Shown: positions 1 to 32,471 of the stretch, in pieces
Layout: each line of letters begins with the position of its first letter
Numbering within the stretch: the stretch's first letter is position 1
Source of the DNA: a virus
Virus record (IMG/VR): IMGVR_UViG_3300008954_000113
Location: 1-39,184 of that record
Direction: 5' to 3' (one strand)
Length of the DNA stretch: 39,184 nucleotides
The notes under the pieces: generated by a model
Told to the model about the DNA's origin: nothing
Database searches by the model: none
Seen by the model: only the letters and a program-made list of their open reading frames with translations
Position numbers and translations under genes: made by a program

Positions 1-251
1 GCAGCGACTTCGTATGCTCTTGGGGAATCGCCCTCTGTTGCAACCTTGAGGATGCCTTCTATTGCGTCCTCGCCCGTAGAAATGAGTTCCTTCATGTTCC
101 GACGCACCAACCAATAGTCCTTTTCGCTGTCATTTGCATCAATCTCAACCTGAGTTATTTTTCTCTTGGTTTCTATCTCTTTTGCTTCTTTTTCAAATTC
201 AATATCCAATGCTTCTGACAATTTCTCATCAACACTTTTTTTATCAATCAT
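1..251 (-). CDS. 16: Terminase small subunit, gp16-like (partial, N-terminal 83 codons)
   Basis: The small terminase subunit recognises phage DNA and stimulates the large-subunit motor during head filling. Reading down from an ATG at 251 gives an acidic N-terminus followed by a conserved helical stretch (NMKELISTGEDAIEGILKVA, then SPRAYEV). This matches the 'Y..LI..G.dAl......A....hPRAYEV' signature of T4-type gp16. The ATG overlaps the stop of the gp15 gene by 8 nt (ATGATTGA), which implies translational coupling. The place after gp13-gp14-gp15 is the T4 order, and gene 17 (large terminase) should follow beyond the window edge. The C-terminus is cut off by the window. The family call is from motif recall, without an alignment. 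Confidence 0.78.
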   Translation of the reverse strand, partial: MIDKKSVDEKLSEALDIEFEKEAKEIETKRKITQVEIDANDSEKDYWLVRRNMKELISTGEDAIEGILKVATEGDSPRAYEVA

Positions 252-1011
252 AATAATACTCACCATAAATTTGATTACCTGCGGTGTATCCATCGCCCGT
301 GAATCCACCTGTTATACCTATACGAAGATCGTGTGGATCTGATACCAACCCATCAAACGCTGTGTCAACACCATGAATATCAATTTCAGATTGAAGAATG
401 ATGCGATTTGTTTTCTCTGGACCATAAACATATGTCTTTGCAGTAAATTCAAATGACGTTGTAATATTTCTTCTTGTGTCGAATGTGCCTTCATATTCTT
501 CGACTGTATTAACTGAATTAAGAACAATAGGAACATCTACTTTAGAGTTTACATCATTTATTTTGAATGTTACAATAAACTCTGGACTAAAATATGGGAG
601 AATCTGTTCAATTATTTGTAGATTGTCATCTTGGTTTCGGGTAAATGAATACAAACCAAAAGAAATATTATACGGAACCTCCGCATAGTTCCACTTCTGA
701 ATAAGACCGTCCTCGGAAGTTGCAGAGGTTGTTCTCAGTTTGTTTCCTCTCCTTGTGGGATCATATGAAAATCCAGTGATATCAAATCCCAATCTGGGAA
801 GAGTTATTTGCGTATGGGTATTGCTGGAGATGCTGCTATCTTCTTGAATTCTTCTAATGAACTTTTCTTTGGGACCATAAGACAAAGGTACACGGATAGT
901 CTCTTTGGTTGTACCATCCGCATTCTTTCGTGCAATCTGAATATCGTTGAAAATAGAACCAAATCCAATTACAGTCTTTCTAATAGATTCGTTGTAGAAT
1001 TGTGTAAACAT
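244..1011 (-). CDS. 15: Tail sheath stabilizer and completion protein, gp15-like
   Basis: gp15 caps the head-proximal end of the contractile tail and makes the joining surface for the head. The 255-residue product is close to T4 gp15 (272 aa). It has the family's opening 'MF.qFYN.siRk...g.gsiFndIqi.R', then RVPLSYGPKEKFI at about residues 40-52, LPRLGFDITGFSYDP at about 70-85, and FTRNQDDNLQIIEQILPYF at about 122-140. These correspond to the T4 gp15 landmarks IRVPITYASKEHF, LPRI...FSYN and FTRYEDDMFQIVEQILPYF. The start codon overlaps the stop of the upstream homing-endonuclease gene (TAATG), and the stop overlaps the gp16 start, so the three genes form a tightly coupled unit. Confidence 0.93.
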   Translation of the reverse strand: MFTQFYNESIRKTVIGFGSIFNDIQIARKNADGTTKETIRVPLSYGPKEKFIRRIQEDSSISSNTHTQITLPRLGFDITGFSYDPTRRGNKLRTTSATSEDGLIQKWNYAEVPYNISFGLYSFTRNQDDNLQIIEQILPYFSPEFIVTFKINDVNSKVDVPIVLNSVNTVEEYEGTFDTRRNITTSFEFTAKTYVYGPEKTNRIILQSEIDIHGVDTAFDGLVSDPHDLRIGITGGFTGDGYTAGNQIYGEYYYD

Positions 1012-1721
1012 TAGTAACCTTCTTTATATCCATGCTCAACAAGACTGTTCCATTTGTCTGTGTTAGGAACAGCCATTTTTCTCTTACCATCTTTATTTAG
1101 GTATTTGATGCCCTTCTTTGCTTCTCTGATTTTATCAACATGGATTGGATTGTTCATAGCATTGTTCTGTTTCATCTTCTCTATAGTTTCTGGTTTGTGC
1201 TTCTTTCCGTGCATCCCGATTTTCTTTTCTCTTTGAAGCCGTTTGTTGTTCTCGCTAATCTTCTTACAGGTTTCCGGTGTTCTTGGATTCTCTTTGTAGT
1301 GCTTTTTCATTGCAATTGAAGTTTTATTTTTTGCTTCATTTGTCCTTGGGTGGTTTTTGTTATGCTCCAATAATGATTTTGATATTTTTTGTTTTACGGA
1401 CAGTCTCTTATTATTATCAGACCACCAAAGAACACCTTTATGGTTTTTTAGATTATAATATCGTTTTCCTAATTCGTTTTCGTCTATCATAGATAAAAAA
1501 ATATATTCTTCGTCTAGCAAATCTTGTCTATTTGAATAGACTCTTTTTAATATTCTTCTTTTAAAATCATCAGGTCTTCTTTTATATGATTTCCTCATCC
1601 ACGGAGAACTACAGATATATCCGTCATTTTCATGACCCCAATGACACCCAATATAATATCTCTTATGTTTTCTGTCATACCAAATATACACAAATCCGTA
1701 TTTTTCTTTCATTGCATTCAT
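1011..1721 (-). CDS. Free-standing GIY-YIG homing endonuclease with NUMOD3 repeats
   Basis: This is a selfish DNA endonuclease of the Seg/I-TevI type, 236 aa. Residues 9-25 hold the catalytic signature (GFVYIW, ten residues, YIG). A candidate catalytic arginine lies at about residues 43-48 and an acidic DEEYIFLSMID segment at about 70-80. The C-terminal half is very basic and has several NUMOD3-type DNA-binding motifs, for example KQKISKSLLEHNK, TPETCKKISENNKRL and HGKKHKPETIEKMKQNN. The start ATG has a strong SD (AAGGAG, 7 nt spacing). It sits between gp14 and gp15, which are adjacent in T4, with 41 bp after gp14 and a TAATG overlap into gp15. This is the usual position of a mobile endonuclease between essential late genes. 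It has no role in virion structure. Confidence 0.88.
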   Translation of the reverse strand: MNAMKEKYGFVYIWYDRKHKRYYIGCHWGHENDGYICSSPWMRKSYKRRPDDFKRRILKRVYSNRQDLLDEEYIFLSMIDENELGKRYYNLKNHKGVLWWSDNNKRLSVKQKISKSLLEHNKNHPRTNEAKNKTSIAMKKHYKENPRTPETCKKISENNKRLQREKKIGMHGKKHKPETIEKMKQNNAMNNPIHVDKIREAKKGIKYLNKDGKRKMAVPNTDKWNSLVEHGYKEGY

Positions 1722-1762
1722 TGCAAATCTCCTTATATATTAATATATATAAAAAGTGTCCC

Positions 1763-2692
1763 CTACACATTCCCCTCACTGAATGGATCTGTGTCTGTAA
1801 AGTCAAAGATGTCATCCATATCTCTCAGCAATTCAATATCTTCGTTATCGCCCGAAGGTTCATCATCTTGTGGTTCTTGTGGAATTATGAGAGTAGTTGT
1901 GGTGCTGCTGTTAATTTCATACTCTGCACCAGAAACAGCACCCTTGAGGGTCTGACCGGACGCAGTTGATATTGTACCAACAATGTTTGTTAATGTTAAT
2001 TTTGTGGTCAGTGCATCCCAGTCCGTCGCTGTCGCAGTTGCGGTTGCATTTGCAAGAACTGCTGACTCTCCACTCACATCTAACACTTGGAATATACTTT
2101 CACCTTCAAAAAAGTTAGTTGCAGTGGTTGCACTAATTTGTGTTCCAAGACTAAATTCAACTGCAAACTTCTTAATTTCATCCTCAACCGTATCAATATC
2201 GGTATATCCCGTATCAATTTCTTCTTGACTATAAGTGAAGACCTCACAGGACAATCTATAGGTAAATAGTTTGCCCAATTGATAAAATGGATTTTCATGT
2301 TCCACGAAGTTAATTTCAAATAAAGTTTTACTGAGAGGAAAATAAATCAAATCTCCCTCTCTTGGTCTTTTTATTTCCTCGTATATACCAACCGTTTCGT
2401 CAAATCTCTTTCTAGAAACGATAAGATCCATTTTATCTCTAATTTCAATTCCAAATTTAGAAAGAACATCACCCTCACCCTCAAACCCATCGACACTTGC
2501 AACATACATTTCTAATTGATAACCATCATCAAATTTAGAAATGGTGTCCTCACCGAAAAGATCATCTGTGTTGACTAGAGTTCTAGGAATATAGACCATA
2601 TCTCTACCCATTGATTTGATGGTTTCAATGGTGAGGTCTTCTACGACGTTTTGTTCGCCGCTATAATCTTTGAAATACGGATTTCTTGCCAT
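1763..2692 (-). CDS. 14: Head completion/neck protein, gp14-like
   Basis: gp14 forms, with gp13, the neck to which the finished tail binds. The product is 309 aa against 256 in T4. T4-like landmarks are the N-terminal [12 protein letters not shown], an [13 protein letters not shown] stretch at about 25-37, [11 protein letters not shown], and [30 protein letters not shown] at about 113-142, the last nearly matching T4 '[30 protein letters not shown]'. Between about residues 185 and 260 there is an extra Ser/Thr/Ala-rich beta segment ([20 protein letters not shown]...) absent from T4 gp14. It resembles small beta modules in other marine phage structural proteins and explains the greater length. 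The acidic tail is typical. It starts 4 bp after the gp13 stop. Confidence 0.92.
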   Translation of the reverse strand: [309 protein letters not shown]

Positions 2693-2696
2693 CAGT

Positions 2697-3500
2697 CTAA
2701 CCTACATTGAAATCGATTGGAAGTTCGTATGTAGTCTTCAATTCTTCCTCTAGTCTTTGTATTTCTTCATTTGCTTCGTTGTATATTTCACCACCCCGAA
2801 GAGAAACACCACCGGGCAATTGAACCCCCTCAAACTTGGACATATTCTGGCCCCATTGACGTTTAATAAGTGCAGTTGTGTATTTCTTCAGCCAAACATC
2901 ATCAAATATCTGAGAGAATGTAACAGAAGGAACTTTAACATACGCTTCAATTATAAGGTATTTGTCTACTACAAGATCAGCATCGTTCATATCTAAATGT
3001 ATTCTGTTTGACACTTTATTGAATCTGATTCTTTTTTCTGGTTGGAAAAAATCTTGAATCATGTTGATGTATCGTTTTGTTGAGTCATACCGAGCAAGTC
3101 CCATAGAACTGTTGTTGCCCAGTCCTCGGTTTATTCCGAAATAGTCTGTCAATGCCATTTGATAACGCACATCAAACATATTGATGTTTGCAAATGTTCC
3201 AAATTGAAATAACCGGACCACACTCAATATATCTTTTCCGGTGGGTCCGTCTCCGGTTGCACCATTCACTGGACCGAGATCATCGGTGCTAATATACATG
3301 TTATCTTTATCGGTTTGAGTGATTTGATACCGAAAATATGCCTTCTCAGAACCGTCAAAGTGTCGTTCTGAAAACATCTCCAATGCTTCATCTAAACGAT
3401 CTTCACATTGCTGTCTATCAACATTTATTTCTACAACCGGGGAACCTAGTTTACGGAGAGAATAGTCTATCAATTCATCTCTAGATGTTGGTGCTGCCAT
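2697..3500 (-). CDS. 13: Head completion/neck protein, gp13-like
   Basis: gp13 joins the portal vertex of the filled head to gp14. The 267-residue product has the family opening 'R.EL.DYsLRKLGsPVvEInvd..Q..DRLDEALEMF..rHfDGsEK', and ends in a basic/acidic helix (EANEEIQRLEEELKTTYELPIDF). T4 gp13 is somewhat longer (309 aa). The ATG at 3500 has an SD (AGGAG, 8 nt spacing). A TATAATAA element lies just upstream at 3519-3526. It is the first gene of the gp13-gp14-endonuclease-gp15-gp16 run, downstream of the unknown Cys-containing gene. Confidence 0.92.
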   Translation of the reverse strand: MAAPTSRDELIDYSLRKLGSPVVEINVDRQQCEDRLDEALEMFSERHFDGSEKAYFRYQITQTDKDNMYISTDDLGPVNGATGDGPTGKDILSVVRLFQFGTFANINMFDVRYQMALTDYFGINRGLGNNSSMGLARYDSTKRYINMIQDFFQPEKRIRFNKVSNRIHLDMNDADLVVDKYLIIEAYVKVPSVTFSQIFDDVWLKKYTTALIKRQWGQNMSKFEGVQLPGGVSLRGGEIYNEANEEIQRLEEELKTTYELPIDFNVG

Positions 3501-4119: not shown

Positions 4120-4146
4120 GTTGATCTCCACAATATATAATAAAGA

Positions 4147-4175: not shown

Positions 4176-5738
4176 TTATTTTATTGGTATTAGTAAAAAT
4201 GGTCGTGTGTAAGATGTATTCGTGATTGGTTTAATTCCAACTTTTGACTCTAAATCAAAACTTTGAATATATGCATGCACTTTAGAATTTATTTTCTTTT
4301 CATATAATGTACTAGTCCAATAATATTTATTTTTCATGTGTTGGTAGGAATGATGTTTATCTTTATCTATATTTTTTATAAACTCTTTCGTATTCATTTG
4401 TCGGTATGCGAACGAAAGGATACCTAACGAAGGTAATGTCCATTTAATATATTTAGTATTTTTGCTGTTTAAAACATCTTGAGCAATATTAATCCATTCA
4501 CTGTTAATATTCGTGTCCCATGATGAACTATTTAATATTGTTTCTTGTGTTATATTTACATCACTTTTGTCTAATTGCGTTTTATTAACAAACAAATCCT
4601 TATCGGCAACAATAACAGCATATTTCTTTTTGTTATTTTCGTTTTCTGTATAATCCATTGCAATATAATCTCTAGCAACACCGGTTTCGGGTCTTCCGAA
4701 ACACACACTACCGGTTCCAAAAGAAGAAGAATGCACATTAAACGTTCCTATATACCTTCCATCAAACACACGTTCACCTATTAACCACTTATTAACATAA
4801 GATGAATTTATTTGACCGTCGTTTGAATATAAATCTAATATTTCTTCACATCGGGTGGAGTTTGTTGGATTGAAATCTCCATCAGGATCTACACCCGACC
4901 ATACACCATTTAATGATATACATTCGTCTTTGTTTAATATCGAAGAAACTACATTGTTATTTTGATCAATGTATACACAACAAGAACCCATATTTTCAGT
5001 TTTTTCTTCTGTTCTTACGGTTGTTCTCTTTGGATCTTTATATGATATCAACAGACCCGTTCTAATGTCTCTAATAGCCGCAGATCTATAAAAACCGTCC
5101 AAACAATCTGTTTCTTCGCAAGTGCTATTTGGTCGCCATAAAATATCTTCGGTTGGTTCTTCTATTTCAGAACATTCTTTTGCAGAACATAAATTATGAC
5201 ATGTTTCAGATGTGCAACAAGAACCTGGCCACCTAACATCATAGATTGTGTCAAAATTTGTACATAACGTCGCTACTTCTAGACCAACACCACTATGGTA
5301 TTCACAACTATTTGGTGACCACACACCATTCAATCTATCACATTCACATTTTGTTATGTTGTCCCTTATACCTCCATTATAACATGCAAACAAATCATTA
5401 TCATCACAATTGCTTATATTGATACCACTATAGTTACCAGAAGAGGGCGGAAACGACCCGGGCGCATTGAAAAAAGCATCAAAATCGTCAACATAAGAAC
5501 AAGAGCAACAGCATCCCCTCATGCTATCATGAATATAGGGACAAGAAAGACCATCCAATATAGGTTTACCATCTCCATCAATTTCAGTTGGTATAAAATA
5601 TCCATTTTGTTCTAAACAAAATTGATATTGGGATTCTGTAGGATCTTTTTTATTTGGCAAACAACAAGCACCCATATCAGATGCAATAAAACTATAATCA
5701 ACAGATGTTTTTATTCTTGAACGATGCTGAAATGTCAT
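4176..5738 (-). CDS. Cys-module adhesin with C-terminal DUF1566/lectin-like domain
   Basis: This is a probable virion receptor-binding protein, 520 aa. The N-terminal ~320 residues are cysteine-rich and include GACC/GSCC modules beginning near residues 24, 172 and 252 (for example MGSCCVYIDQ). These resemble the modules in the three large proteins upstream. From about residue 315 a different domain begins: WLIGERVFDGRYIGTFN, then YAVIVADKDLF, WTLPSLGILSFAYRQM, YYWTSTLYE and a final TRPFLLIPIK. This spacing of 'IG..y.G.yIGtF', 'W.LPS..EL', 'YWTST' and 'RPi..i' is the pattern of DUF1566/Lcl C-terminal (C-type-lectin-like) domains, also seen at the end of the 1023-aa protein. There is no collagen segment. 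The SD is GAGG, 11 nt before the ATG. The gene follows the 2140-codon adhesin gene by about 20 bp. Confidence 0.72.
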   Translation of the reverse strand: MTFQHRSRIKTSVDYSFIASDMGACCLPNKKDPTESQYQFCLEQNGYFIPTEIDGDGKPILDGLSCPYIHDSMRGCCCSCSYVDDFDAFFNAPGSFPPSSGNYSGINISNCDDNDLFACYNGGIRDNITKCECDRLNGVWSPNSCEYHSGVGLEVATLCTNFDTIYDVRWPGSCCTSETCHNLCSAKECSEIEEPTEDILWRPNSTCEETDCLDGFYRSAAIRDIRTGLLISYKDPKRTTVRTEEKTENMGSCCVYIDQNNNVVSSILNKDECISLNGVWSGVDPDGDFNPTNSTRCEEILDLYSNDGQINSSYVNKWLIGERVFDGRYIGTFNVHSSSFGTGSVCFGRPETGVARDYIAMDYTENENNKKKYAVIVADKDLFVNKTQLDKSDVNITQETILNSSSWDTNINSEWINIAQDVLNSKNTKYIKWTLPSLGILSFAYRQMNTKEFIKNIDKDKHHSYQHMKNKYYWTSTLYEKKINSKVHAYIQSFDLESKVGIKPITNTSYTRPFLLIPIK

Positions 5739-5760: not shown

Positions 5761-8700
5761 TTATGCTTGTGGACATTCTGGATACCTGCAATTTTCGGGA
5801 TCACATGTCATCCAAACACAAACTCCACCTGGAAGTTGAACAAATCTCAATTCATCATATTCTTCCTTTTCAGAAGAAATCCTTTTAGCATTCAAGAAAT
5901 CATTCCTGTGTGTTTTATTTTGAATTTGTCTTTTCAATTCTCTTGGATGTATTGGTTCATTCGTGTTTCGGGGAGGTGGGGGTGGTGCAAATGCGCCTCC
6001 GTGTCCCAGTAAACATTGATAAGACACACCATCGTCGAAGGACACACAGTATTCGTTATACGCGCATGCAGGATTACAGTTACTGTCGTCATATTGCAAC
6101 ATACAGGTGGCTTCATTTGAATTCAATTGGACACATCGCCTCGATTCCCCACACCAATCCGGACCGTATTGGGCACAGTCACATGGGTTTCTATTCGTAC
6201 TTTTATCTAGTTCACCACAAAGAACTTCACTCACTACGAACCTTCCATCCTCACCGGCGCAGCAATTGTCTGTTTTAGCATAAGAACATTTAGTGTTGCC
6301 GTTATCTCTATATGCACAGCAAATGCCGTTCCAACAAGGTGTTTCTGGATTTTGGTCACCATCATCCAACACCCAACAGTCATCTAGATTATGGCCCGTG
6401 AGCATGAGGCCAGAATAATCTTCATAACATTCCTGCCATGTGGTTTCTTTACACTTCAAATATGTACTATCTGGACCAGGTTCTGATCCTGGAGTTCTAG
6501 AGTCCCTTCCTGTACAGCAAGTAACATCAGTATCCCAATATTCTGAACATTCGTCTCCACAAGCACCCGTTCCCCATTCGCTTGTACCACCCAAATTATG
6601 ACATACCATTGTACTATAATCAGAACAAGAACCATTAAGACAGCATGGTCTAGCATCGTTAATGTCGCACGATCTCTCACAACATTTTTGCCCTTCAAAA
6701 AATGTATAACCATTGCTGGTGCTGCATGGATACGGGTCGTCTATTGGTACTTTAGCATCATAAGAATCACCATTGCTAGTATCACAGCAGCATCCTCTTT
6801 TACATTCAACACACACGTTATTATTATAAGAACAACACCCACTAGAGCATTCGTCGTGGTTGTCACAATATCCGCCCTCATCTGTACAGGTTTGACAAAC
6901 ATTATTTACACAACACTCGGTACAATCATCACTAGATACACAATTCTCCCCATTCGGACAATTCTGACACGTTCCATCTTTACAACACCCACTGGAGCAT
7001 TCAGAACTGTCATCACATTCGTCACCATCATCTACACATTCTGTGCAATAATCATTTACACAACATCCACTTGCACAATCATTACTATTAATACAATCAT
7101 CTCCTTCACCACCATCACCGTCGCCATCACTGTCGCCGTCGCCATCACTGTCGCCGCCACCACAATCTTCACAAATGTTATTCATACAACATAAATTTTG
7201 ATCGGGTGGACAATCATCATCCTGATTGCAATAATCTACAACACAATCAGAATTACATATGCCCGGGTTTTCAGAACACACACCACTGGCACCATCTGGA
7301 ACTATACCTTCCCAATAATTTTCACACAAAGAACCCGAAGCGGTAATACACATTGAGCCAACACAACATGGACCCGGGGGGCATGATTCTGGATCTTCAC
7401 TACACATAGTCCCAATGCCCATAAATTCCTGATGAGAGCCTCCACATCCGTTCTCTTCTCTATTTCTACACCGCCCATCCCAATAACAACATGCACCAAA
7501 TGGACAAGCCTCTTCACCCTGCCCCGCAATTTCAGCACAAGTCAAACCACTATCCCACCAATCCATGTTAGGGATTCCACCAAGCATCTTGCATAAAGTG
7601 AAACTCACATCTTCACATGTGTATTGACCACCTGACTCATTATGAATGCAACAAGGTCCAAAATCCATATCATCACATGTGCTGACTTCGCATGTTCCAT
7701 CGAATGGAGAAACATAATCAAAATCATAATTCCCACCGTTATCATAACAATCCGTCCAATTGTTATATTCACAGTCTGAGTTTGTATCTGCACTAACGCA
7801 ATAACATGCTGAATCAATGCAGCAAAGCCCGTCTAATTCATAAGGAGAGCAATTATCACACCCCCCATCAATAAGGGGGTGGGGCATACCATCCGGCCAC
7901 TCCTCATTTGGATTATTACAAAAACATGGTGCATGCGGGTTGTTGGGGTCCCAGTAAGTTGTACAGAACGCAAGAGTACACGAACCATCTGGCCAGCAAC
8001 AGTGACCATCATGCGGTCCGGGCCAACTATCGTCGGGGTCGCCGCTGTCGCCGTCATGACTTGTATCACTTGTATCACATAAATCCAACAAATCGGGTAC
8101 ACATATACTCTCATATGAGCCCTCCCACCAAACATTAACACAGCATCCATCATTACATGGACAATCCCCTGTCCCACATATCCCATCACAATTCGGTAAA
8201 CAATCATAATAACCATCACATATACCATTCATACAACAATAAGTACAATCACTATTCGACGAACAAGCGCAATCATCAACGGTGTCACATCGCCCAGAAT
8301 TGCAACAAGTATAATCTTCATTTGGTCCATAAACACAAGAACAGTCGGAATGATCATTGCACGAAATCCAACATGAATTCGTCCCTTCCTCACACTCCCC
8401 GCCCGATGAATCTGAAACCCAAATTCCATTGTTCGGGTAGTTTAGACATAAACATTCTGTAGTGGTTATACAATCACCGTCCTCTGTACAACAACTGCCA
8501 AGTTCTTGTATCACACAATTAGAACAATCTTCGGCACCCTCTGTCCAAAGAGCGCAGGGGTATGATGATTCACAACTATCTAAAGTATGAATCCCCAAAC
8601 AATCAAACGAACCATTATGATTTGTATTACAACAGGATCCTAATATTTGCCAACCATCGGGACAGACGACATTAACATCGCATTCTCCATCCTCATACCA

Positions 8701-11700
8701 AATTGACTCAGAAAGAAGATCACAAGCACTTTCAGTAGTTTGGTGACAGGAATTAGTGCTGTTGAATACCCAGCAGCACGCACCAAGTGTGTCCCCCTCT
8801 AAAGAGCATCCATCAGCATCAGCATTAGAATTACATAATGTTTCATGCCAAGTGCCAATACAAAATGGTTCCTGAACATCTGTGCAAGTGTGTATTTCTC
8901 CCATATCACTTACACAACATCCACCAATCGGACCCCAACAATCTTGCAAATCATTTGGGCAACTGTCACCTGGGTTCCATTCATTAATGTATCCATGTGT
9001 GACACATTCATTATAAGTTATATCTTCTATACACCCACTATTATCAGAAGTATCCATCCAACAACATGATCCAATACTAGTACTACAATCAACAGTTGAA
9101 CAAGTATCAGTAGAATTTATCCACCACGTTCCTCCTGCATTAACACAATCCGATTCGGTCTGATCGTTGCTACACGAATAATCAGAATAACAACACAGTC
9201 TTGTTTCCGGTGGTGCTTCACATGTAATACTATTACAGTCAGTATTTTCATACCAATCGCCATTGCAATCATTTTGAGTTTCTTGAGTGCAAATATAATC
9301 GGTATAATTGCAGCATGCTCCTGTGGGAGGAGAACCACAATCTACATCAGCACAAGCGGTTCCTTCTCCTTCCCAACTACCTCCACTGTCATTACAATAA
9401 GACTCATACACTTCTGAGCATGTATAATTAATACAACACGCCCCGGGTATTGGTGGGTTACCACAATCTATATAATCACAATTGGTAAGTTGTCCATACC
9501 AATGTCCGCCTTCGCTATCACAATTAGAATATGTTTGTAAAGTGCAATTATAATCAGCACAACACGCTCTAATGGGATCTGCCCCATCCCCATCCCCATC
9601 ACCATCAGATCCCCCACACACACTACAATCAGAACCCCCGCCCATCCATGTGAAATAGCAATCCCACTCATTATTCTGTTCACAATCATAATATTCTTCA
9701 TTTGAAGAAATTACATCAATAAAATCATCAAGATATTCTATAGAATTTATTGGAAAATAATTTCCATTTGTGGTTTCAGCCATATATCTTAAAGGTTCAC
9801 CTTCTCCCAGTGAGAGATCAAAACCAACAGTCCAATATACAGAAAGTATATCATTTGGTAGATCAAACAACGTTTGTGTTGTTCCCCAATCACTTGGATC
9901 ACCATCGCTAAAGAATAGAACAGAAACATCCCCCTCAGTAGTTTCTGCAACAGTTTGATGATAATTTACAGGATATAAATAATAAGTGGTACCATAGGGG
10001 TCTGTATAGTTGTTATTGATATAGTTTAAAACATTATCATAATTATAAGTTGGAGACAATTTATCATCTATCGAATCAGTCCAAATATCAACACCAATTT
10101 TAGGTTTATTATTGTTGGGATTGTCGCCGTAAATTTCCTTAACGTAGGACACAAAATTTAATAACCAGTTTCGGATAATTGTTGATTTAGATTCTCCACT
10201 GCCCTCAAAAGGATGACTCATAGAACTGCTATTGTCCAAGGAAATTAAAATAGAACCACCATTAAACAATTGATGTTCACAGCATGCACCTTGCATACAT
10301 TTGGTCGGATTGCAATCTACCCCTCTTCCTAAAAACACACCGCCAAGATCAGAACAAGATAATGCTGTTTCTATAGAACAAATGTCACCAAGACAGCATG
10401 CACCATAATCACTATCAAGGAAACAACAAATATTATCATCCTCACCGCATTGTGATTCTGGTCCCATAAATACTCCGGGATTTACTACATCTCCTCCTAT
10501 ACTTTCACCAGCAGAACATGAAACATGATCTGTGTATTCACAATGAGCAAGATGAACTTCTCCATCTTCGTCTATAAATTCCCTATAACAGCATGCACCA
10601 TAATAACCTGCTGCTCCACAACATTCAACATTGCCGCAACTAGCACAGGAATTGTTTGGATCAACAGCCTTAGTTACAGGTGTTCCTCCATAAACATATT
10701 TACAAACTGCTGGAGACAGAGGACCAATTCCGTTTCCGCTAGAATCACCTATACATGAACCTTCTTTGCAACAAGCAAAACAATCGCATGTAGAAACACA
10801 CAAATCATTTTTCATATCAGTTCCTAATAGAATCCCCTCACCAGAATAACATCTAGGATCATACCTATAGTCGTCAAATAAACTGCAAGGAAGACGACCG
10901 CCACAATTGATTGGCATGGGTTCGTCTAGTGGAACCATCCTATAATCTGAAATTGACGGATCCCGTTCAACATAGTTGAAGGTTTCATAAAAATCACCAA
11001 AGAAGTAATTACATTCTGCCGGTTCAATATTTTCTATGCAAACCCCTTCACCATGGAAATCCCCCCAATTTCCACCAGCACTGCAACAAACTCCATCAGC
11101 GTCAAGACCACAATTTTCTAGGCACGAAGACAAAGGATTCCAATATGAATTGTTATATTCATCACATTGTTCTCTTGTTATAAAATCTTTACATTTAATT
11201 CTATCGGCGTCGTCCCTATAGCAGCACGAACCCACACCAACCACACTAGTACATTCTTTTGTACCATATCCACGCACTGTTATAGATGCATTCCAAGTCT
11301 CACCAGCATCATCAGACATTATATTGATAATATCAGTACCACAAGAGAAAAATCTTTCATTTATTTTAACATTACTTGGAAATTGCCACAGATCATTATC
11401 ACGAAGAATAAGAGTAAAATTAATCAATTCGTCCTCTCTAAAATCTCCTGTAAATCCAGAAATTCCAATTGGACATTGCACATCAAAAATAGACCCGGCA
11501 GTCACCGATAACAAAATTGCATCTCCCGGCACTCTTCCAACACAGGAGGATGGATTTTCGTGGCAAGGTTCCCCATAAATACCTACGAGTTCGTTTCTTT
11601 CTACGGGAGCAATTTTAATTATTCTATCTTCAGCATCAAGAGAAAATTGATTTCCGGTATATCCATGACCAAAGATTATATCACCATCATCAAAAGTAAG

Positions 11701-12183
11701 TCCCGTTGCAGTCAGTTCATTTTTTTGTTGCAAATAAGCATAACGTCCCTTTGAAGCATTTGAAACATTTGAATCAAAGATGGACGATAAACTTTTTATT
11801 ACAATTGAATTTTCATTTTCTTCAACACTAAGGTTTCCTTCTGCCGAAATTCCCTTAAACCAAAAGGTAGTACCGTCAGTAACCTCTTTAAGAACACCAA
11901 CACCCAAACCAAGGTTCACACCATCAGCATTTCCAACTGATCCGGTCGGTCCTACCAATCCATCAATTCTTACTTCTTCACCACTTGACAACATCACATA
12001 CAATGATGTGTCGTTTGCATAACTGGAAATCACATAAGTGCCAGTTGATCCACTTGGTCCAGTTGGTCCTGTGTTCGCTGTAGTTGGACCCATTGGACCT
12101 GTTGGACCTGTCGAACCGATATTTCCTCTTGGTCCAACTGTTTCATATGATTGTGTTATTGAACTGCTTCCAACTACTGGCAT
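5761..12183 (-). CDS. Giant modular adhesin: collagen-like stalk, Cys-module array, von Willebrand A domain
   Basis: At 2140 aa this is larger than any T4 structural protein. Order of parts: GSS N-terminal peptide (1-16); collagen-like Gly-X-Y (17-48); beta modules of phage-fibre type (50-310); cysteine-rich block 1 (about 315-640); a von Willebrand A domain (about 640-828) with a MIDAS-like DNSSSMS and a later LFFSDGDPSD strand; then a very long array of six-Cys modules (core GACC...C...C..GG.W...C...C). About two dozen modules occur in total, with Asp/Gly linkers (DGDGDGDGAD near 862; about 1675-1693) and a run of knottin-like repeats (C..S.EC.SGCC..G.C, about 1690-1800). A proline run (APPPPPR) and a short Cys-containing tail end the protein. 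It is probably a surface adhesin stabilised by many disulfides. Receptor and function are unknown. The ATG has an AGGA SD. Confidence 0.8.
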   Translation of the reverse strand: MPVVGSSSITQSYETVGPRGNIGSTGPTGPMGPTTANTGPTGPSGSTGTYVISSYANDTSLYVMLSSGEEVRIDGLVGPTGSVGNADGVNLGLGVGVLKEVTDGTTFWFKGISAEGNLSVEENENSIVIKSLSSIFDSNVSNASKGRYAYLQQKNELTATGLTFDDGDIIFGHGYTGNQFSLDAEDRIIKIAPVERNELVGIYGEPCHENPSSCVGRVPGDAILLSVTAGSIFDVQCPIGISGFTGDFREDELINFTLILRDNDLWQFPSNVKINERFFSCGTDIINIMSDDAGETWNASITVRGYGTKECTSVVGVGSCCYRDDADRIKCKDFITREQCDEYNNSYWNPLSSCLENCGLDADGVCCSAGGNWGDFHGEGVCIENIEPAECNYFFGDFYETFNYVERDPSISDYRMVPLDEPMPINCGGRLPCSLFDDYRYDPRCYSGEGILLGTDMKNDLCVSTCDCFACCKEGSCIGDSSGNGIGPLSPAVCKYVYGGTPVTKAVDPNNSCASCGNVECCGAAGYYGACCYREFIDEDGEVHLAHCEYTDHVSCSAGESIGGDVVNPGVFMGPESQCGEDDNICCFLDSDYGACCLGDICSIETALSCSDLGGVFLGRGVDCNPTKCMQGACCEHQLFNGGSILISLDNSSSMSHPFEGSGESKSTIIRNWLLNFVSYVKEIYGDNPNNNKPKIGVDIWTDSIDDKLSPTYNYDNVLNYINNNYTDPYGTTYYLYPVNYHQTVAETTEGDVSVLFFSDGDPSDWGTTQTLFDLPNDILSVYWTVGFDLSLGEGEPLRYMAETTNGNYFPINSIEYLDDFIDVISSNEEYYDCEQNNEWDCYFTWMGGGSDCSVCGGSDGDGDGDGADPIRACCADYNCTLQTYSNCDSEGGHWYGQLTNCDYIDCGNPPIPGACCINYTCSEVYESYCNDSGGSWEGEGTACADVDCGSPPTGACCNYTDYICTQETQNDCNGDWYENTDCNSITCEAPPETRLCCYSDYSCSNDQTESDCVNAGGTWWINSTDTCSTVDCSTSIGSCCWMDTSDNSGCIEDITYNECVTHGYINEWNPGDSCPNDLQDCWGPIGGCCVSDMGEIHTCTDVQEPFCIGTWHETLCNSNADADGCSLEGDTLGACCWVFNSTNSCHQTTESACDLLSESIWYEDGECDVNVVCPDGWQILGSCCNTNHNGSFDCLGIHTLDSCESSYPCALWTEGAEDCSNCVIQELGSCCTEDGDCITTTECLCLNYPNNGIWVSDSSGGECEEGTNSCWISCNDHSDCSCVYGPNEDYTCCNSGRCDTVDDCACSSNSDCTYCCMNGICDGYYDCLPNCDGICGTGDCPCNDGCCVNVWWEGSYESICVPDLLDLCDTSDTSHDGDSGDPDDSWPGPHDGHCCWPDGSCTLAFCTTYWDPNNPHAPCFCNNPNEEWPDGMPHPLIDGGCDNCSPYELDGLCCIDSACYCVSADTNSDCEYNNWTDCYDNGGNYDFDYVSPFDGTCEVSTCDDMDFGPCCIHNESGGQYTCEDVSFTLCKMLGGIPNMDWWDSGLTCAEIAGQGEEACPFGACCYWDGRCRNREENGCGGSHQEFMGIGTMCSEDPESCPPGPCCVGSMCITASGSLCENYWEGIVPDGASGVCSENPGICNSDCVVDYCNQDDDCPPDQNLCCMNNICEDCGGGDSDGDGDSDGDGDGGEGDDCINSNDCASGCCVNDYCTECVDDGDECDDSSECSSGCCKDGTCQNCPNGENCVSSDDCTECCVNNVCQTCTDEGGYCDNHDECSSGCCSYNNNVCVECKRGCCCDTSNGDSYDAKVPIDDPYPCSTSNGYTFFEGQKCCERSCDINDARPCCLNGSCSDYSTMVCHNLGGTSEWGTGACGDECSEYWDTDVTCCTGRDSRTPGSEPGPDSTYLKCKETTWQECYEDYSGLMLTGHNLDDCWVLDDGDQNPETPCWNGICCAYRDNGNTKCSYAKTDNCCAGEDGRFVVSEVLCGELDKSTNRNPCDCAQYGPDWCGESRRCVQLNSNEATCMLQYDDSNCNPACAYNEYCVSFDDGVSYQCLLGHGGAFAPPPPPRNTNEPIHPRELKRQIQNKTHRNDFLNAKRISSEKEEYDELRFVQLPGGVCVWMTCDPENCRYPECPQA
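9700..10263 (-). other. von Willebrand A domain nested inside a Cys module
   Basis: Within the 2140-aa adhesin, residues about 640-828 form a vWA-like domain. A strand SILISLDNSSSMS supplies the MIDAS DxSxS motif, IGVDIWTDS and VSVLFFSDGDP follow, then a YWTVGF strand. The domain is preceded by GACCEHQLFNGG and followed by YYDCEQNNEWDCYF...GGGSDCSVCGG. The vWA therefore separates the CC of one six-Cys module from its remaining four cysteines. Confidence 0.7.
12040..12135 (-). repeat. Collagen-like Gly-X-Y segment of the 2140-aa adhesin
   Basis: Residues 17-48 follow Gly-X-Y with many GPT/GST triplets, with a break at TTAN. Such segments form trimeric stalks in other phage fibres. A trimer here is inferred. 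Confidence 0.8.
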
Positions 12184-12259: not shown

Positions 12260-12285
12260 ATGAGTATCATCGATGAGTATCATCG
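12260..12285. repeat. Perfect 13-bp tandem duplication across a stop codon
   Basis: ATGAGTATCATCG occurs twice in direct succession. The TGA stop of the 1673-aa gene (12267-12269) lies in the first copy. The 13-bp unit is not a multiple of three, so the duplication changed the final codons of that gene (DDTHR-stop, where a single copy would read DDTHE-stop). Confidence 0.9.
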
Positions 12286-15200
12286 TCACCGTCACCAATT
12301 CCCCCAGAACAATCATCACAACCGCCTCCGGCCATTGCTTCGCATGTTGGTTGGGCAACACATGAATCACAAGTTGGACTCACACATCCCGGCTCACCAC
12401 CTTCACCAGGTGGGGGTACTGTTGGGTCGTCGCCTGGATCAACCTCTCCGTGTTCGGTTTCACCTGTCCAGTGATTACAATTGCCATCAGATCCTCCTCG
12501 ACAGGGGGGCCCGTCAATATCACCATCACCATCACTACCACCATCACTATCACCATCACCATCACTATCACCATCACTATCACTACCACCATCACTGTCG
12601 CCGTCGCCGTCACCATCACTGTCGCCGTCGCCGTCACCATCACTGTCACCCCATGGTGGTGGGTCATCATCATTGGGGTCTGGACAATGTATTGGGGGAC
12701 AATCGTGTCCATCGGTTGGACCATCCCAACCACCACAGCCGAAACAAAATGGACAGCAACTACATCTTGGAGGATTGCAGTTATCATAAACTCCATCGGG
12801 AGGATCACCCTGCGTGGGATCTCCGTCACTATCACCTACAGGTGGATCCCAGGGGGAGTCGCCATCACTGTCACTGTCACTGTCGCTGTCACTGTCACTG
12901 TCACTGTCGCTGTCGCTGTCACTGTCGCTGTCACCATAAATAGATTCACAATCAACAGAGTTTCCTTCGCATTCATAACAATACCAACCACCAATCTCTC
13001 CTCCGTGTGGAACTCCATTGCATAAATGATTGTGCATGCATAGTGTATTAGAACCACCCCAAATGCCCCCCAATTCATTGTGACATTCTTGTGGTCCTTG
13101 TGTTAATATACATTTAGATTCAAAATCTCCACCCGATACATGCACACAACCACAACATGCTCCCCACGCATTTGATCCACATCCTAAATTATCTTTAATG
13201 TGGTTGGGAACTTCTTCTATAGTTTTAAATCTAGGAGACAATGGAACGCCTAATTTACCTGTGGTTGGAAAATCATATTTTAAACATTCTTCCCAGGTGT
13301 TTGTTGAAACTAAACCACTTTGTGTACAACATACAATTTGATCGAGGGAACACTGATCTTCCCAATCGGGATCGTAGTTCCTATAATCATAATCGTTATT
13401 GGAGATATAAACTTTCACTCCCTGACAACTTTCACCACAACATTCAATTGGCTCGGGTGAACCATAACCAAAATCTTCGGGGGCATCCATACCATATTGA
13501 TTGGTGTCAATAGATTCAAAGTAACCCATGTGAGCATCACATGAAGCATGAGTAAAATTACATGCATCTATTACATCTGTTCCTAAATCTAAACCGTCTA
13601 AAAAGGATTGAACATCATCAGCAGAACCATTTTCGTTTAGATGTTGTAAATAATTCCAATCTCCCCAATACATTGGACCCATACAACACCTACCTCTTTT
13701 TGCACAAGAGGTGCATTCATAATCTATATTTCCCGAATCTATACCAAGCATACTCGGCCATTTAAACCAACCACTATTAATATAACAGCCTTGACAATGA
13801 CGAGCATCAATGTCTCCAATGCCACCATTGGCAATGGAGTCACATATCGTACACGAAACAATACTAGGACATTCATATCTACTATATCCCGTATCTCCTA
13901 AATATCCAGGCCAATCTCGCCATTGCATGAAACCGGGATTGAACGAATTGTCTATGCTGTTGGTGGGGTCGATTCTCGGATCCAATATCATCGATCTGAC
14001 AGGTTCGTTTATAACATCTCTATACATGATTTTATCACATGTGCTATTTTGCCCTATCCCGTAAGGACTATCATCCCCTAGATTTGATCCATGCCATACT
14101 AAATTTGGTCCATCGCACAAAGCACCAATTATATCTGCACACGTTCCCCTATAAGTGTTGCAACATGCTCCTATTCTACATTCTATGTCCTCACATAATT
14201 GACCTTCTGTGAAAATTCCGTTATCTAAAGAACAAGAGAACATGTCTGTATCTTCGCACGCTCCACTCCCATCACTAGAGCAACATGCACCAAGAAGTGG
14301 ATCTGGGACAGGTGTGTCTTCGCAGCAGCATTCCCAACACTGACCATCTACCAACAACATAGTTCCAGATGATAGTGTTTCTCCAGTCGAACATGTTCCA
14401 ACTTCACACGGACAATCTACACCATTGCATGCACATATGTTATATTCAAGACCCGTTTCGGGGTCATAACATGGACCATCTTTGATTTGTTGCCACCCTA
14501 TACAAACTGATGTGCATGGTGGGAAGTTTCCATCCGGGCATTTTCCGTTTTCATCTAATGTGGCACCTCTAGTACCATCTTCCAACAAACAATCAAACGG
14601 AGCATATGCAGTAGTGTCCCTTTTTGGACCAGCACATCTAGATCCCACTCCCCAGAAAACCCCCACTCCACCATTATTTGATCTTAGTTGATTACATACC
14701 ATAGGTGTAGTTTCATAACATACTTCATCAACGCAACAACCTCCCATCTGACCACTTAAACAACAATTGAAATTTTCACAACTTTGAGTTGAATGGAATG
14801 TACTATTTGGAACAAAGGAACATTCTTCCTCTGTCAATTCATAGCAAATATTATCAATACAACAGGCTGCTCTTTCTTTACACGGCTTTGGACATCCACC
14901 AAGTACATATTCCACATCATTACAGGTTTTGTTCCTAATGAAGAAACCACCAAACAATAAACATTTTTCCGAAGTCGTGTCTATACAACCCCCATTCACA
15001 CAACATGAACCTTCCGTGTAGCAATCTGGTCCTTCAGGTCTTTCTGTGCAAGGCAAAGAACTAAAAAGTCCTCCAATAGTTTCACAATAAGAATCTGTTG
15101 TATAATCTAAACATTTTGGTTGAGAATAGTCATCGTCCCCCTCTAATCCCTCACAGAAACAACAAGAACCCAAAATGTTTGGCGATGTGTATGTTTGATC

Positions 15201-17288
15201 AAACACAACATTAGAAAACCTATAAATTACACCAGAAGAACTACCATCGTTCTCCGATGTCATTCCCATGTGCAACCCGCTTTTTAAAATTTCAATATCA
15301 CCCAATGCACCAGCAAACGAAAACGGAACATCCGATCCCTCAAGAAAATCCTTGTTGACTATAGTGGTCGTGTTTTCTGGACCATTCAATAAATTATTAC
15401 TATCTAGAGATTCCCTGTGATTTGTAAATTGTGCAGTAAGTTTGCTACCATTCCACTGTGTGTTTAAAGCCCCCTCAGCCGAATTGCCCGAAAATATGTA
15501 CAGCAATTCTCCCGTATTACCAACAATACCACCATTTGGAAGTTCCTGAGATCCGTTGAAAAGAACAGTATATTCAGAAGAAGAATTTATTGATATGTCA
15601 CGACCGCTAACAGTTAATGTTCGGAAGTATGCAGTGGCACCGTCCCTTTCTTTGAATAATCTTCCATGTTCTATGTTTTCGCTGGTATTCAGAATGTTAT
15701 ATTCTGGATTATAATCTGTGCCCGTCGGACCTCTTGCACCAGTAATACCGATTGAATATTCTATATGTCTGTTGTTATATGTTTCATTTTCTTTTACATT
15801 GACGCTTAATTTATTTTTAGATAAAATATATGCAGATGAATACGTTTTATATTCATCATAATCATAGTTATGAAGGGATATATCAGATAAGGAGTTTCCG
15901 CAGGTTATATCATCCCCTGCATATGAAATATTCACACCAATCCCCGGACCTATAATATAACCCACCGAAGGGTGGATGGATATAGTTTGTTTTGGTGATA
16001 ATATAATATTTTTTAATACTGCTGACTCATATTCGTTTTCATGATTGAGTTTGTATATATAAATTCGACCGGGGCTATAATCACCACTTGTACTATCGTT
16101 ACCTGCACCATAACTGCCAACCACAAGAGTATCATCCCACACATCCAACCCATGTCCAAAATTAGATCCTGTTTCTGGAAAAGGATTTATTATTATTTCA
16201 GATTGTATCCAATTATCATCACTATTTTTCGTATAAACATAAACTGCTCCATTGTAACCATCCTCTTCCCAAAAACGAACAGAACATGCACCAGCACAAG
16301 CAACATTACCGTGAATAGAAACGTCAAGACCATGTGAAGGTGAGAATGGGAGGGCTGTACAATTGGTGTATGGAAAATCAGTGCAACTTCCTCGTTCATA
16401 GAATTTTCTTTCCCAATCAGAATTTTGATAATCATATTCATATATTGTAACACCACCTCGATAACCACTGCTCCCAAAAGGTGAAATTATCATTTTACCA
16501 TTTCTTATACAACCAGTTCCTGGTTCGTATCCCCCAGTCTCCTCAAGGGCCCATCCATATATCTCTGTCAGTGTTTTATTACTCCATTCTGTATTTTCCG
16601 TCCACGATGATCCATTATCCGATGTGGTATAGTGATAAAAAAATGCATCATTATTATCCGTCCGTCCGACAGAAAAGAATAAAGAATTACTAGAAGCATC
16701 CACTAAACATGCTCCCTTTCCAATCAACTCCCAGTCGTCTTGAACGCCGCTGGGACGAATTTTCTGAATCTGTGACCATGTTCCAGAAGCACTATCTCTT
16801 TTCCACACATATACTGCTCCTGTGTCATAACCATCCTCTTCAGCCCCTAATGCACCACCAACAACAACAACATCATCATTATCAAAAACAGTAACATCTA
16901 CATTCCTTCCAAGTGACCAACCAGCACCACCATCATTTGCATATAATGTGGCGTCTAACACCCATGAATCAATTATCTTTTTATATACAAAAATTCTACC
17001 GGTGCTGCTGCTCCACTTGGGGTCAGAAATGAGTTTATAATCACCATCTTCAGATAAACCATATTTTCCCATTTTTATAGCGGTCGCCCCTGATCCTTCT
17101 ACATAAACTACCGGACCATATGACACAACACTAGTAATTCTATGTCCAGTGGGACCAGTAGGGCCGATTTCTCCGATCGAACCAGTTGGACCAGTTGGAC
17201 CGATAGGACCAGTATTTCCTGTGTTCCCTAAAAAACCATCACCACCGATGGTTTTTGGTATTTGACTTGAACCGTGTATTTCTAGCAT
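12267..17288 (-). CDS. Giant modular adhesin: collagen-like stalk, FG-GAP-like propeller, Cys modules, SD/DGD repeats
   Basis: The product is 1673 aa. It opens with the GSS peptide shared with its two large neighbours, then a collagen-like segment (18-48) and a short VVSYGPVVYVEGSG beta strand. From about 60 to 480 there are repeated blades of the type 'GR.v.v..ddv.vVGg......GavYVyk......W', ending with LDVWDDTLVVGSYGAG. This is an FG-GAP/integrin-like propeller pattern. A second short collagen-like bit (GITGARGPTGT) and a beta domain lead to cysteine modules from about 704 (LGSCCFCEG, EGSCCVNGGC, RAACCIDNIC, LGACCSSDGSG). Ser-Asp dipeptides fill about 1452-1477 and Asp/Gly/Ser repeats about 1546-1592. 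The tail is Cys- and Gly-rich. The likely role is a long surface adhesin. The SD is weak and distant (GGATG), so initiation may depend on coupling. Confidence 0.8.
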   Translation of the reverse strand: MLEIHGSSQIPKTIGGDGFLGNTGNTGPIGPTGPTGSIGEIGPTGPTGHRITSVVSYGPVVYVEGSGATAIKMGKYGLSEDGDYKLISDPKWSSSTGRIFVYKKIIDSWVLDATLYANDGGAGWSLGRNVDVTVFDNDDVVVVGGALGAEEDGYDTGAVYVWKRDSASGTWSQIQKIRPSGVQDDWELIGKGACLVDASSNSLFFSVGRTDNNDAFFYHYTTSDNGSSWTENTEWSNKTLTEIYGWALEETGGYEPGTGCIRNGKMIISPFGSSGYRGGVTIYEYDYQNSDWERKFYERGSCTDFPYTNCTALPFSPSHGLDVSIHGNVACAGACSVRFWEEDGYNGAVYVYTKNSDDNWIQSEIIINPFPETGSNFGHGLDVWDDTLVVGSYGAGNDSTSGDYSPGRIYIYKLNHENEYESAVLKNIILSPKQTISIHPSVGYIIGPGIGVNISYAGDDITCGNSLSDISLHNYDYDEYKTYSSAYILSKNKLSVNVKENETYNNRHIEYSIGITGARGPTGTDYNPEYNILNTSENIEHGRLFKERDGATAYFRTLTVSGRDISINSSSEYTVLFNGSQELPNGGIVGNTGELLYIFSGNSAEGALNTQWNGSKLTAQFTNHRESLDSNNLLNGPENTTTIVNKDFLEGSDVPFSFAGALGDIEILKSGLHMGMTSENDGSSSGVIYRFSNVVFDQTYTSPNILGSCCFCEGLEGDDDYSQPKCLDYTTDSYCETIGGLFSSLPCTERPEGPDCYTEGSCCVNGGCIDTTSEKCLLFGGFFIRNKTCNDVEYVLGGCPKPCKERAACCIDNICYELTEEECSFVPNSTFHSTQSCENFNCCLSGQMGGCCVDEVCYETTPMVCNQLRSNNGGVGVFWGVGSRCAGPKRDTTAYAPFDCLLEDGTRGATLDENGKCPDGNFPPCTSVCIGWQQIKDGPCYDPETGLEYNICACNGVDCPCEVGTCSTGETLSSGTMLLVDGQCWECCCEDTPVPDPLLGACCSSDGSGACEDTDMFSCSLDNGIFTEGQLCEDIECRIGACCNTYRGTCADIIGALCDGPNLVWHGSNLGDDSPYGIGQNSTCDKIMYRDVINEPVRSMILDPRIDPTNSIDNSFNPGFMQWRDWPGYLGDTGYSRYECPSIVSCTICDSIANGGIGDIDARHCQGCYINSGWFKWPSMLGIDSGNIDYECTSCAKRGRCCMGPMYWGDWNYLQHLNENGSADDVQSFLDGLDLGTDVIDACNFTHASCDAHMGYFESIDTNQYGMDAPEDFGYGSPEPIECCGESCQGVKVYISNNDYDYRNYDPDWEDQCSLDQIVCCTQSGLVSTNTWEECLKYDFPTTGKLGVPLSPRFKTIEEVPNHIKDNLGCGSNAWGACCGCVHVSGGDFESKCILTQGPQECHNELGGIWGGSNTLCMHNHLCNGVPHGGEIGGWYCYECEGNSVDCESIYGDSDSDSDSDSDSDSDSDSDSDSDGDSPWDPPVGDSDGDPTQGDPPDGVYDNCNPPRCSCCPFCFGCGGWDGPTDGHDCPPIHCPDPNDDDPPPWGDSDGDGDGDSDGDGDGDSDGGSDSDGDSDGDGDSDGGSDGDGDIDGPPCRGGSDGNCNHWTGETEHGEVDPGDDPTVPPPGEGGEPGCVSPTCDSCVAQPTCEAMAGGGCDDCSGGIGDGDDDTHR
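12513..12650 (-). repeat. Asp-Gly-Ser (DGDGDSDG) repeat tract
   Basis: Codons for alternating Asp, Gly and Ser fill residues about 1546-1592 of the 1673-aa adhesin, including near-identical tandem DNA units (gtcgccgtcgccgtcaccat on the plus strand). Such tracts are flexible and may chelate calcium, as in thrombospondin type-3 or dockerin-like sequences. That role is inferred. Shorter relatives lie in the 2140-aa adhesin. Confidence 0.85.
12858..12932 (-). repeat. Ser-Asp dipeptide repeat
   Basis: About a dozen consecutive SD dipeptides are encoded by 6-bp units (plus strand tcactg or tcgctg). They resemble the SD stalks of staphylococcal Sdr/Clf adhesins, which hold a binding domain away from the surface. 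The stalk role here is inferred. Confidence 0.88.
17145..17237 (-). repeat. Collagen-like Gly-X-Y segment of the 1673-aa adhesin
   Basis: Residues 18-48 read as ten Gly-X-Y triplets (GNTGNTGPIGPTGPTG and onward), ending at GPTGPTG. Confidence 0.85.
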
Positions 17289-31496: not shown

Positions 31497-32471
31497 TCAG
31501 CATGTGACATGATCACCACTACAATTTGCTCCAAGTATAAAAAATGAATTTTCACCATATTCACTCAAACATTCTGATCTTGTAATGTGGTCAATGCAGT
31601 CACCATCAGCACAACAAGCACCCTCTTGCTGAAATACACAGTCCTCACATGGCACATCAAAAGAACAGTTATTACAACCCCAACAATCATCTTTATAGTG
31701 TATATCTAATTTTTCCTGATCACAATGTGTGTCTATAAAATGTGCCCTCATTAAGTTAATAGTTGTCGCCATATAATCTTCATTATGCATTTCATATGTA
31801 AATCTACGCATATCATCGGAAGATTGCCCACAAGGAGAGGCTGCACACATTTCTGCATCACAGCAGCCCCAAGAAACACACGAAGGCCCATCAAAACATG
31901 GATTAAATTTACTTTCGGCTATTTCAGAGCCCCACAATTCCTCAAATTTGTTATACAATCCGTTCACTATTGGACTACCTTCGTCCCAAGTAAAAGATCC
32001 AGAAACGTCGATCATGAACCAAATTTGTGATGGATATGGATTGGTTTGCCCGTTTTCTAATACAGGACTACCAAATCGATTGATTATTTCATCATAAATA
32101 TAATCAATAGCATTTTGAATCTCATCATCTCTATGATACTCATACCGAAGGAAGGGCAAATCATAACACTGAGGTGGATCGGGAATATCATCACAATCAC
32201 CATATTGATAATCACACGAAGGATGAAGAAAAATTTCCAATCCAACCCTGACCATTCCATCTTCTTCGATAAATTCATTTGTAATGCCGTATTTTGATGC
32301 CTCAATTTTAGGGTGAATTACATCTTCGTCCATTAAACAAAATGGATTACCATCTCCGAGATCTATTGTGTCGGAATAATCAGAACTGCTATCTTCATCT
32401 GGACCTATTGATATAAAAACTGCTGGTCCGCCTGGACTAGGCCCACAACAACAACTATTATAACCAAGCAT
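31497..32471 (-). CDS. Cys-rich protein with vWA-like MIDAS and a terminal six-Cys module
   Basis: The product is 324 aa, of unknown function. It opens with MLGYNSCCCGPSPGG. At about 147-158 IWFMIDVSGSFTWDEG has the DxSGS pattern of a von Willebrand A MIDAS, preceded by an amphipathic helix (AIDYIYDEIINRFG) and followed by a helix (IVNGLYNKFEELW), as in vWA folds. A Cys-containing loop (PSCVSWGCCDAEMCAASPCG) interrupts the domain. Near the C-terminus GACCADGDCIDHITRSEC...C...C is one complete copy of the six-Cys module that fills the distant giant adhesins. It is placed between two hub-like genes, so this module is also part of the baseplate. The SD is GGTGGA. Confidence 0.6.
   Translation of the reverse strand: MLGYNSCCCGPSPGGPAVFISIGPDEDSSSDYSDTIDLGDGNPFCLMDEDVIHPKIEASKYGITNEFIEEDGMVRVGLEIFLHPSCDYQYGDCDDIPDPPQCYDLPFLRYEYHRDDEIQNAIDYIYDEIINRFGSPVLENGQTNPYPSQIWFMIDVSGSFTWDEGSPIVNGLYNKFEELWGSEIAESKFNPCFDGPSCVSWGCCDAEMCAASPCGQSSDDMRRFTYEMHNEDYMATTINLMRAHFIDTHCDQEKLDIHYKDDCWGCNNCSFDVPCEDCVFQQEGACCADGDCIDHITRSECLSEYGENSFFILGANCSGDHVTC

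Follow-up and report, generated by a model that had tools for sequence, protein, structure and literature searches.

Six-cysteine modules in putative tail appendages of T4-like viruses, shared with Planctomycetota and resembling an element of animal iRhoms

The window analysed here, the whole of a 39-kb virus record (IMG/VR IMGVR_UViG_3300008954_000113, 39,184 nucleotides), encodes a protein of 2140 residues, B2140, that carries an array of small six-cysteine units, the GACC modules. We describe this module, its predicted fold, the pattern in which its cysteines pair, its distribution and one transfer of its DNA between a bacterium and a phage, and from these we propose a virion location, a host, an oxidation route and an adhesion function. 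In our joint reading, to which we give a probability of about 0.62, B2140 and the neighbouring proteins C1673, D1023 and A520 would be tail-fibre or baseplate appendages with disulfide-locked modules; their phages would infect Planctomycetota, the modules would have been captured, and the disulfides would form by oxidation after lysis. The modules in neighbouring proteins, the exchange with Planctomycetota and the relation to iRhoms go beyond a first-pass annotation of this DNA, which had described the array in B2140.

A six-cysteine module array in B2140

Cysteine makes up 10.7% of B2140 (228 residues, including 36 CC pairs); elsewhere among the proteins of the window its content is mostly 0–2%. 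Thirteen sites fit the strict pattern CC-x4-12-C-x6-9-C-x8-20-C-x3-10-C, where 2000 shuffles gave 0.24 on average and never more than 3; this bears out the array seen at first pass. The tally is smaller than the two dozen modules suggested there, with about 13 strict modules, or 15–18 once weak hidden Markov model (HMM) matches are included. Many of the remaining CC pairs lie in degenerate units or in four knottin-like units (C-x5-C-x2-3-CC-x4-6-C-x2-C; shuffle mean 0.08), whose presence among the modules (residues 1697–1794) had been recognised correctly. The modules also align on a common cysteine spacing, as had been proposed: all six cysteines are invariant across the 14 modules of alignment A1, and the dominant spacing is C-C-x4-C-x7-C-x13-C-x4-C. 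The GG-x-W motif, previously given as a fixed part of the pattern, is frequent and not invariant.

The modules had been placed after a vWA domain. Arrays do lie there, and two modules also precede it (residues 318–358 and 594–629). The vWA-like domain itself is a match below the Pfam cut-off (VWA_2, E 0.0023, 19 bits against 27), and no relatives of it were found in IMG/VR contigs. Across five aligned orthologues the first 320 residues of B2140 are 41–44% identical and hold 1–5 cysteines; past residue 320 the orthologues are cysteine-rich and variable. Two IMG/VR loci hold extreme relatives, a 1950-residue frame with 284 cysteines (L022:3-5852) and an incomplete 912-residue frame with 132 (L056:9618-12353).

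Cysteines are lost in pairs

Across 791 aligned modules, C1 and C4 were lost jointly in 7 of 7 cases (p 3e-17), and true four-cysteine modules without C3 always lacked C6 too (p 1e-5 and 9e-8); these p-values are optimistic, since related sequences were counted, and by our reading they reflect at least two and at least three independent events. Modules lacking C3 and C6 comprise two in A520, homologues in L023, L042, L085 and L133, and two in the Phycisphaerae locus L185; in L042 the loss is our reading of the sequence, and another cysteine follows at a longer distance. Cases with C3 present and C6 absent are mostly an artefact of cutting the module at the next CC. With C1–C4 and C3–C6 lost in pairs, C2 is left by elimination to pair with C5. 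The alignments thus imply disulfides I–IV, II–V and III–VI rather than metal binding, and this pattern, together with the relation to the disulfide-bonded iRhom domain IRHD, upholds the three disulfides per module anticipated at first pass.

Alternatively, the cysteines could bind metal in the manner of a zinc ribbon, or remain reduced, so that oxidation would be unneeded. Cytoplasmic synthesis without signal peptides and the failure to find an oxidase would fit such a protein. However, metal ligands or unrelated cysteines are not expected to vanish in fixed pairs, and a zinc module would keep its cysteines as a set, whereas the losses here are pairwise. The relatives of the module appear to be exported proteins, and the iRhom IRHD is described as disulfide-bonded in cryo-electron microscopy (PMC11248996). 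None of the analyses made here showed metal-bound or reduced cysteines. We regard metal binding or permanent reduction as very improbable.

Predicted fold and relation to iRhoms

AlphaFold2 modelled two tandem modules from an alignment of 44 rows with a predicted local distance difference test (pLDDT) score of 92, each module adopting a beta-beta-alpha-beta topology, which gives the single module a predicted fold as envisaged at first pass. All four matches that Foldseek found among 350,542 PDB chains were to iRhom1 or iRhom2 (IRHD structures 9xy4, 9q7y, 8snl and 9o58), with probabilities of 0.66–0.97 and E values of 0.13–0.86 that are weak alone. VIA-align superposed the module model on iRhom at 1.4–2.0 Å over 38–39 residues (Z 2.6–3.3), most closely on iRhom1 597–637 (1.4 Å, 39 residues, Z 3.3); the matched elements are approximately residues 569–608 of iRhom2 (8snl) and 597–637 of iRhom1 (9xy4, 9q7y). 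A fold search of BFVD gave no credible match.

Sequence profiles pointed to the same element. iRhom was the sole PDB match of the phage-module profile A1 (E 1.2e-6 to 3.8e-5), and was also matched by the double-module profile (E 0.0018) and by the bacterial-module profile A9 (E 0.005). The iRhom site is spaced CC-x6-C-x7-C-x13-C-x4-C, and a second, partial site begins ACC. Shuffling the residues segment by segment, with the cysteines left in place, weakened the top iRhom match to E 0.2 (15.6 bits against 32 for the real profile), and the shuffled double-module profile no longer matched iRhom. The signal drops on shuffling and persists weakly, so the cysteine frame contributes and the other residues do too.

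The likeness could therefore be convergence on a small cysteine frame, as that residual match and Z scores of just 2.6–3.3 for so short a unit would allow. The real profile nevertheless scores well above the shuffled one, iRhom is the sole PDB match by two methods, and the six-cysteine spacing recurs together with a second, partial iRhom module. We judge convergence unlikely, if a serious contender, and common descent of the module and the iRhom element likely, though not proven. A wider proposal is more tentative and, in our estimate, somewhat short of an even chance: GACC would be a mobile disulfide-locked block of bacteria, phages and animals, with fibres built from planctomycetal modules and the iRhom copy acquired from a prokaryotic or viral source. 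Three reports give the IRHD 16 cysteines in eight disulfides and term its structure unprecedented (PMC11248996, PMC10148629, PMC6451368).

Distribution of the module

Searched with whole proteins, Pfam, NCBIfam, PHROGs, the PDB (single sequence) and INPHARED (tblastn) yielded no match to the module. In IMG/VR DNA, the pattern G-[AS]-C-C-x4-C-x7-C-x13-C-x4-C was found in at least 120 stretches, and 47 viral loci among the matches listed encode HMM-supported module proteins. A stricter pattern, run on genomes of 84,980 species as a sample and not a census, also gave at least 120 stretches. Among the matches listed, 106 of 120 belong by record title to Planctomycetota, mostly Phycisphaerae, 9 to Myxococcales, Gemmatimonadetes, Zixibacteria, Eisenbacteria or Krumholzibacteriia, and the remaining 5 to a single bacterium. 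The first-pass statement that planctomycetes share such repeats was sound, and the search for sharers among bacteria and viruses led to Planctomycetota and T4-like phages, and to no curated family. The collected loci contain at least 784 strict modules, 288 of them with the canonical spacing.

Signal-peptide-like starts, called heuristically, occur in 51 of 96 bacterial module proteins (many of those without one are cut by the locus edge) versus 2 of 47 viral ones, and B2140, which begins MPVVGSSSITQ, has no signal peptide. Dockerins are present on some of the bacterial proteins. In two other phages (L071 and L114) modules adjoin tail-fibre genes. A synthetic consensus found no match in plasmids and a single marginal one (E 0.1) elsewhere, to the baseplate wedge protein of Vibrio phage EniLVp02 (L255:2108-3121), whose insert GACTLDDS..C..GGRW resembles a module but lacks the CC pair.

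A recent transfer of one module

The B2140 orthologue in L093, extended as L256, is intact over 1951 codons and contains 196 cysteines, and L256 is syntenic with the window (Ad2 65%, Hc2 72%, sheath stabilizer 66%). Its residues 1765–1800 form one module whose DNA is identical at 103 of 108 positions, including 34 of 36 third positions, to a module of a Planctomycetota metagenome-assembled genome (MAG), Nau_6. The match (L093:2320-2429, the same in L256, to L153:34-143) covers 110 bases, almost exactly one module. With a G+C content at third codon positions (GC3) of 0.61 against 0.26 gene-wide, the module is the top outlier among 162 (z 4.4). The MAG copy belongs to a secreted dockerin-like protein whose two parts are encoded at the end of a 130-kb contig and at the start of a second contig; the matches in L153 and L262 are probably one gene over two contigs and were counted as one locus. 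The MAG has 20 module matches in all, and the transferred DNA was not found in 298 other genomes of the class searched. At the DNA level, these matches demonstrate a recent transfer between Planctomycetota and a T4-like virus. The modules of the window are not G+C outliers, so any capture there would be older. Codons ~594–738 of the L256 gene form a second stretch of high GC3 (0.5–0.6), cysteine-rich but without GACC modules, possibly captured too.

Such an exchange would also suit phage modules that mimic host surface modules, docking through module–module contacts or disguising the fibre, and the FG-GAP_2 repeats of C1673 may speak for adhesion of this kind. Against mimicry, the modules are diverse, most pairs being only ~35–60% identical, and we consider it quite unlikely.

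Proposed virion setting, oxidation and host

The window contains T4-like neck, tube and baseplate genes, with a gp6 of at best ~31% identity to isolates, and the module genes sit among the baseplate wedge and neck genes, a location that fits T4-like tail-fibre or baseplate appendages. B2140, C1673 and D1023 share an N-terminus with a short GSS motif and collagen-like GPTGPTG. Many IMG/VR contigs, divergent in sequence, keep the same gene order with module-rich proteins at the same place; searched by tblastn, B2140 and D1023 had no match among INPHARED isolates. From the T4-like position and the collagen-like N-terminus we propose a fibre, and from the rigid modules in tandem a stalk or an array for adhesion. 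Judged by gene neighbourhood and N-terminal architecture, the module proteins are probable virion components, and it is on these two bases that the first-pass designation of B2140 as a virion protein stands.

In the mechanism we propose, the conserved, cysteine-poor, collagen-like N-terminus would attach the protein and probably trimerise it, and modules of ~36 residues, each a pair of short beta strands followed by a helix and one more strand, would act as rigid stalk or adhesion units. On these arrays, variable domains (vWA, FG-GAP and perhaps lectin-like ones) would be carried outside the virion. Phages would take single modules from their probable Planctomycetota hosts via recombination, making the array a fast-changing cassette region. 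Without a signal peptide, synthesis would be cytoplasmic, and formation of the disulfides would most likely wait until lysis releases the proteins into oxic water. A phage-encoded thiol oxidase, considered at first pass, did not turn up: neither it nor related folds (Evr1_Alr, thioredoxin, DsbA) were found in 25 viral records, all possibly fragments, and the Evr1_Alr search also gave no match in any control genome and is hence uninformative. With no oxidase genes in these fragments, oxidation after lysis is the simplest route.

Planctomycetota are the probable hosts of this phage lineage. Several observations weigh against the joint reading. The lineage was not found in 392 Planctomycetota genomes except for one distant T4-like contig; the Ad2 search of 16 + 392 genomes that returned this contig, whose genome has no module matches, is itself uninformative. 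G+C content is ~32–44% in the T4-like loci versus 59% in L153. Composition by itself points to the direction bacterium to phage, and a single transfer shows contact without naming the host of the window's phage. T4-type modules are nearest to other T4-like phage modules in 109 cases versus 54 for bacterial ones. Six of the seven proteins with C1/C4 loss form one family, the other being in L234, so independent events are few, and the virion location is deduced from synteny and domain architecture.

The modules might instead be stability stalks only, in phages of some other host, their bacterial likeness being a trace of the old, wide spread of a small domain. The predominance of phage modules as nearest relatives would agree with this, as would the four D1023 modules, which hold their position across homologues at 27–66% identity, and the lack of any lineage member binned with Planctomycetota. 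Against such an account stand the recent 108-nucleotide exchange with a Planctomycetota chromosome and the marked bias of the module towards that phylum, and we consider it rather unlikely.

Other features of the window

C1673 contains three strict modules, and its C-terminal Ser/Asp/Gly repeats (window 12267-13000, minus strand) resemble MSCRAMM SD repeats in composition. The C-terminus of D1023 was modelled at pLDDT 60, too poor for a meaningful fold search. The DVSGS motif of E324 resembles a second metal ion-dependent adhesion site (MIDAS) or vWA; a Pfam scan of E324 gave no match. Between the sheath stabilizer and Hc2, a 236-residue open reading frame (ORF; window 1011-1721, minus strand) has a GIY-YIG-like start, YIWYDRKHKRYYIG, and by eye is a candidate homing endonuclease. 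Between Ad2 and the module genes lies u201, a small cysteine-containing protein (window 3553-4158, minus strand) that is strongly conserved (50–67%) in relatives covering the stretch.

Table 1. Positions of B2140, its parts and related genes (window coordinates unless a locus is given).
Feature	Position	Strand	Basis
B2140, cysteine-rich fibre-like protein, 2140 residues, 228 Cys	5761..12183	minus	ORF; orthologues in IMG/VR contigs
B2140 N-terminal part, residues 1-320: GSS motif, collagen-like GPTGPTG, Cys-poor, conserved	11224..12183	minus	Orthologue alignment; PHROG tail fibre/collagen-like matches
GACC-type module, residues 318-358, ahead of vWA	11110..11232	minus	Strict pattern
GACC module, residues 594-629, canonical 4-7-13-4 spacing, ahead of vWA	10297..10404	minus	Strict pattern
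vWA-like domain, residues 646-761, MIDAS-like DNSSS	9901..10248	minus	Pfam VWA_2 match
Seven tandem GACC modules, residues 872-1174	8662..9570	minus	Strict pattern; AlphaFold2 of first two, pLDDT 92
Three GACC modules, residues 1509-1643	7255..7659	minus	Strict pattern
Four knottin-like six-Cys units, residues 1697-1794	6802..7095	minus	C-x5-C-x2-3-CC-x4-6-C-x2-C
GACC module, residues 1845-1879	6547..6651	minus	Strict pattern
T4-like neck genes (sheath stabilizer, head closure Hc2, adaptor Ad2) with inserted 236-residue ORF, downstream of module genes	244..3500	minus	
A520, two four-Cys modules without C3 and C6, plus one degenerate	4176..5738	minus	Sequence
C1673: collagen-like N-terminus, FG-GAP_2 repeats, GACC modules, Ser/Asp/Gly repeats	12267..17288	minus	Pfam; strict pattern
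D1023: collagen-like N-terminus, four GACC modules (18646-19179), C-terminal domain with weak Lcl_C match	17308..20379	minus	Strict pattern; Pfam
gp6-like baseplate wedge, upstream of module genes	28414..30219	minus	
E324: 25 Cys, DVSGS (DxSxS, MIDAS-like, by eye), one C-terminal GACC module	31497..32471	minus	Strict pattern
B2140 orthologue in L256	L256:6335-12187	minus	

Significance

A small, widespread domain for which we found no match in Pfam, NCBIfam or PHROGs now has a predicted fold and a testable disulfide pairing. No paper on the module in phages or Planctomycetota was found in the open-access literature searched, and it may have been described elsewhere earlier. Its exchange links Planctomycetota with T4-like phages for which the isolates searched gave no match, a lineage recorded only from environmental DNA for which these findings supply a host hypothesis. 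They also make it a pressing question by what route probable virion proteins, with some 100 potential disulfides, become oxidised, and the iRhom domain called structurally unprecedented would gain a relative outside animals.

Comparison with known systems

The units of B2140 at residues 1697–1794 match knottins in their cysteine order, C-C-CC-C-C, whereas the GACC modules differ from knottins in having the order CC-C-C-C-C and a helix. With the collagen-like tail fibres of tailed phages (PHROG 1806, 5073 and 6320) the module proteins share the GPTGPTG N-terminus and the position among baseplate and neck genes; the PHROG matches are restricted to that N-terminus, and the six-cysteine arrays lie outside them. 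The iRhom IRHD resembles the module in one complete six-cysteine element and a partial second copy, disulfide-bonded and extracellular, but there the element sits within a larger domain of a membrane pseudoprotease, does not form tandem arrays and is ~30% identical. No Pfam rhomboid match to a rhomboid-like transmembrane core was found, and the window protein is not an iRhom. The secreted GACC proteins of Planctomycetota (Phycisphaerae), for which no curated family model was found either, some of which carry a dockerin, differ from the phage proteins in their signal peptides and in lacking a collagen-like N-terminus, yet they have the same module, the same spacing and tandem arrays.

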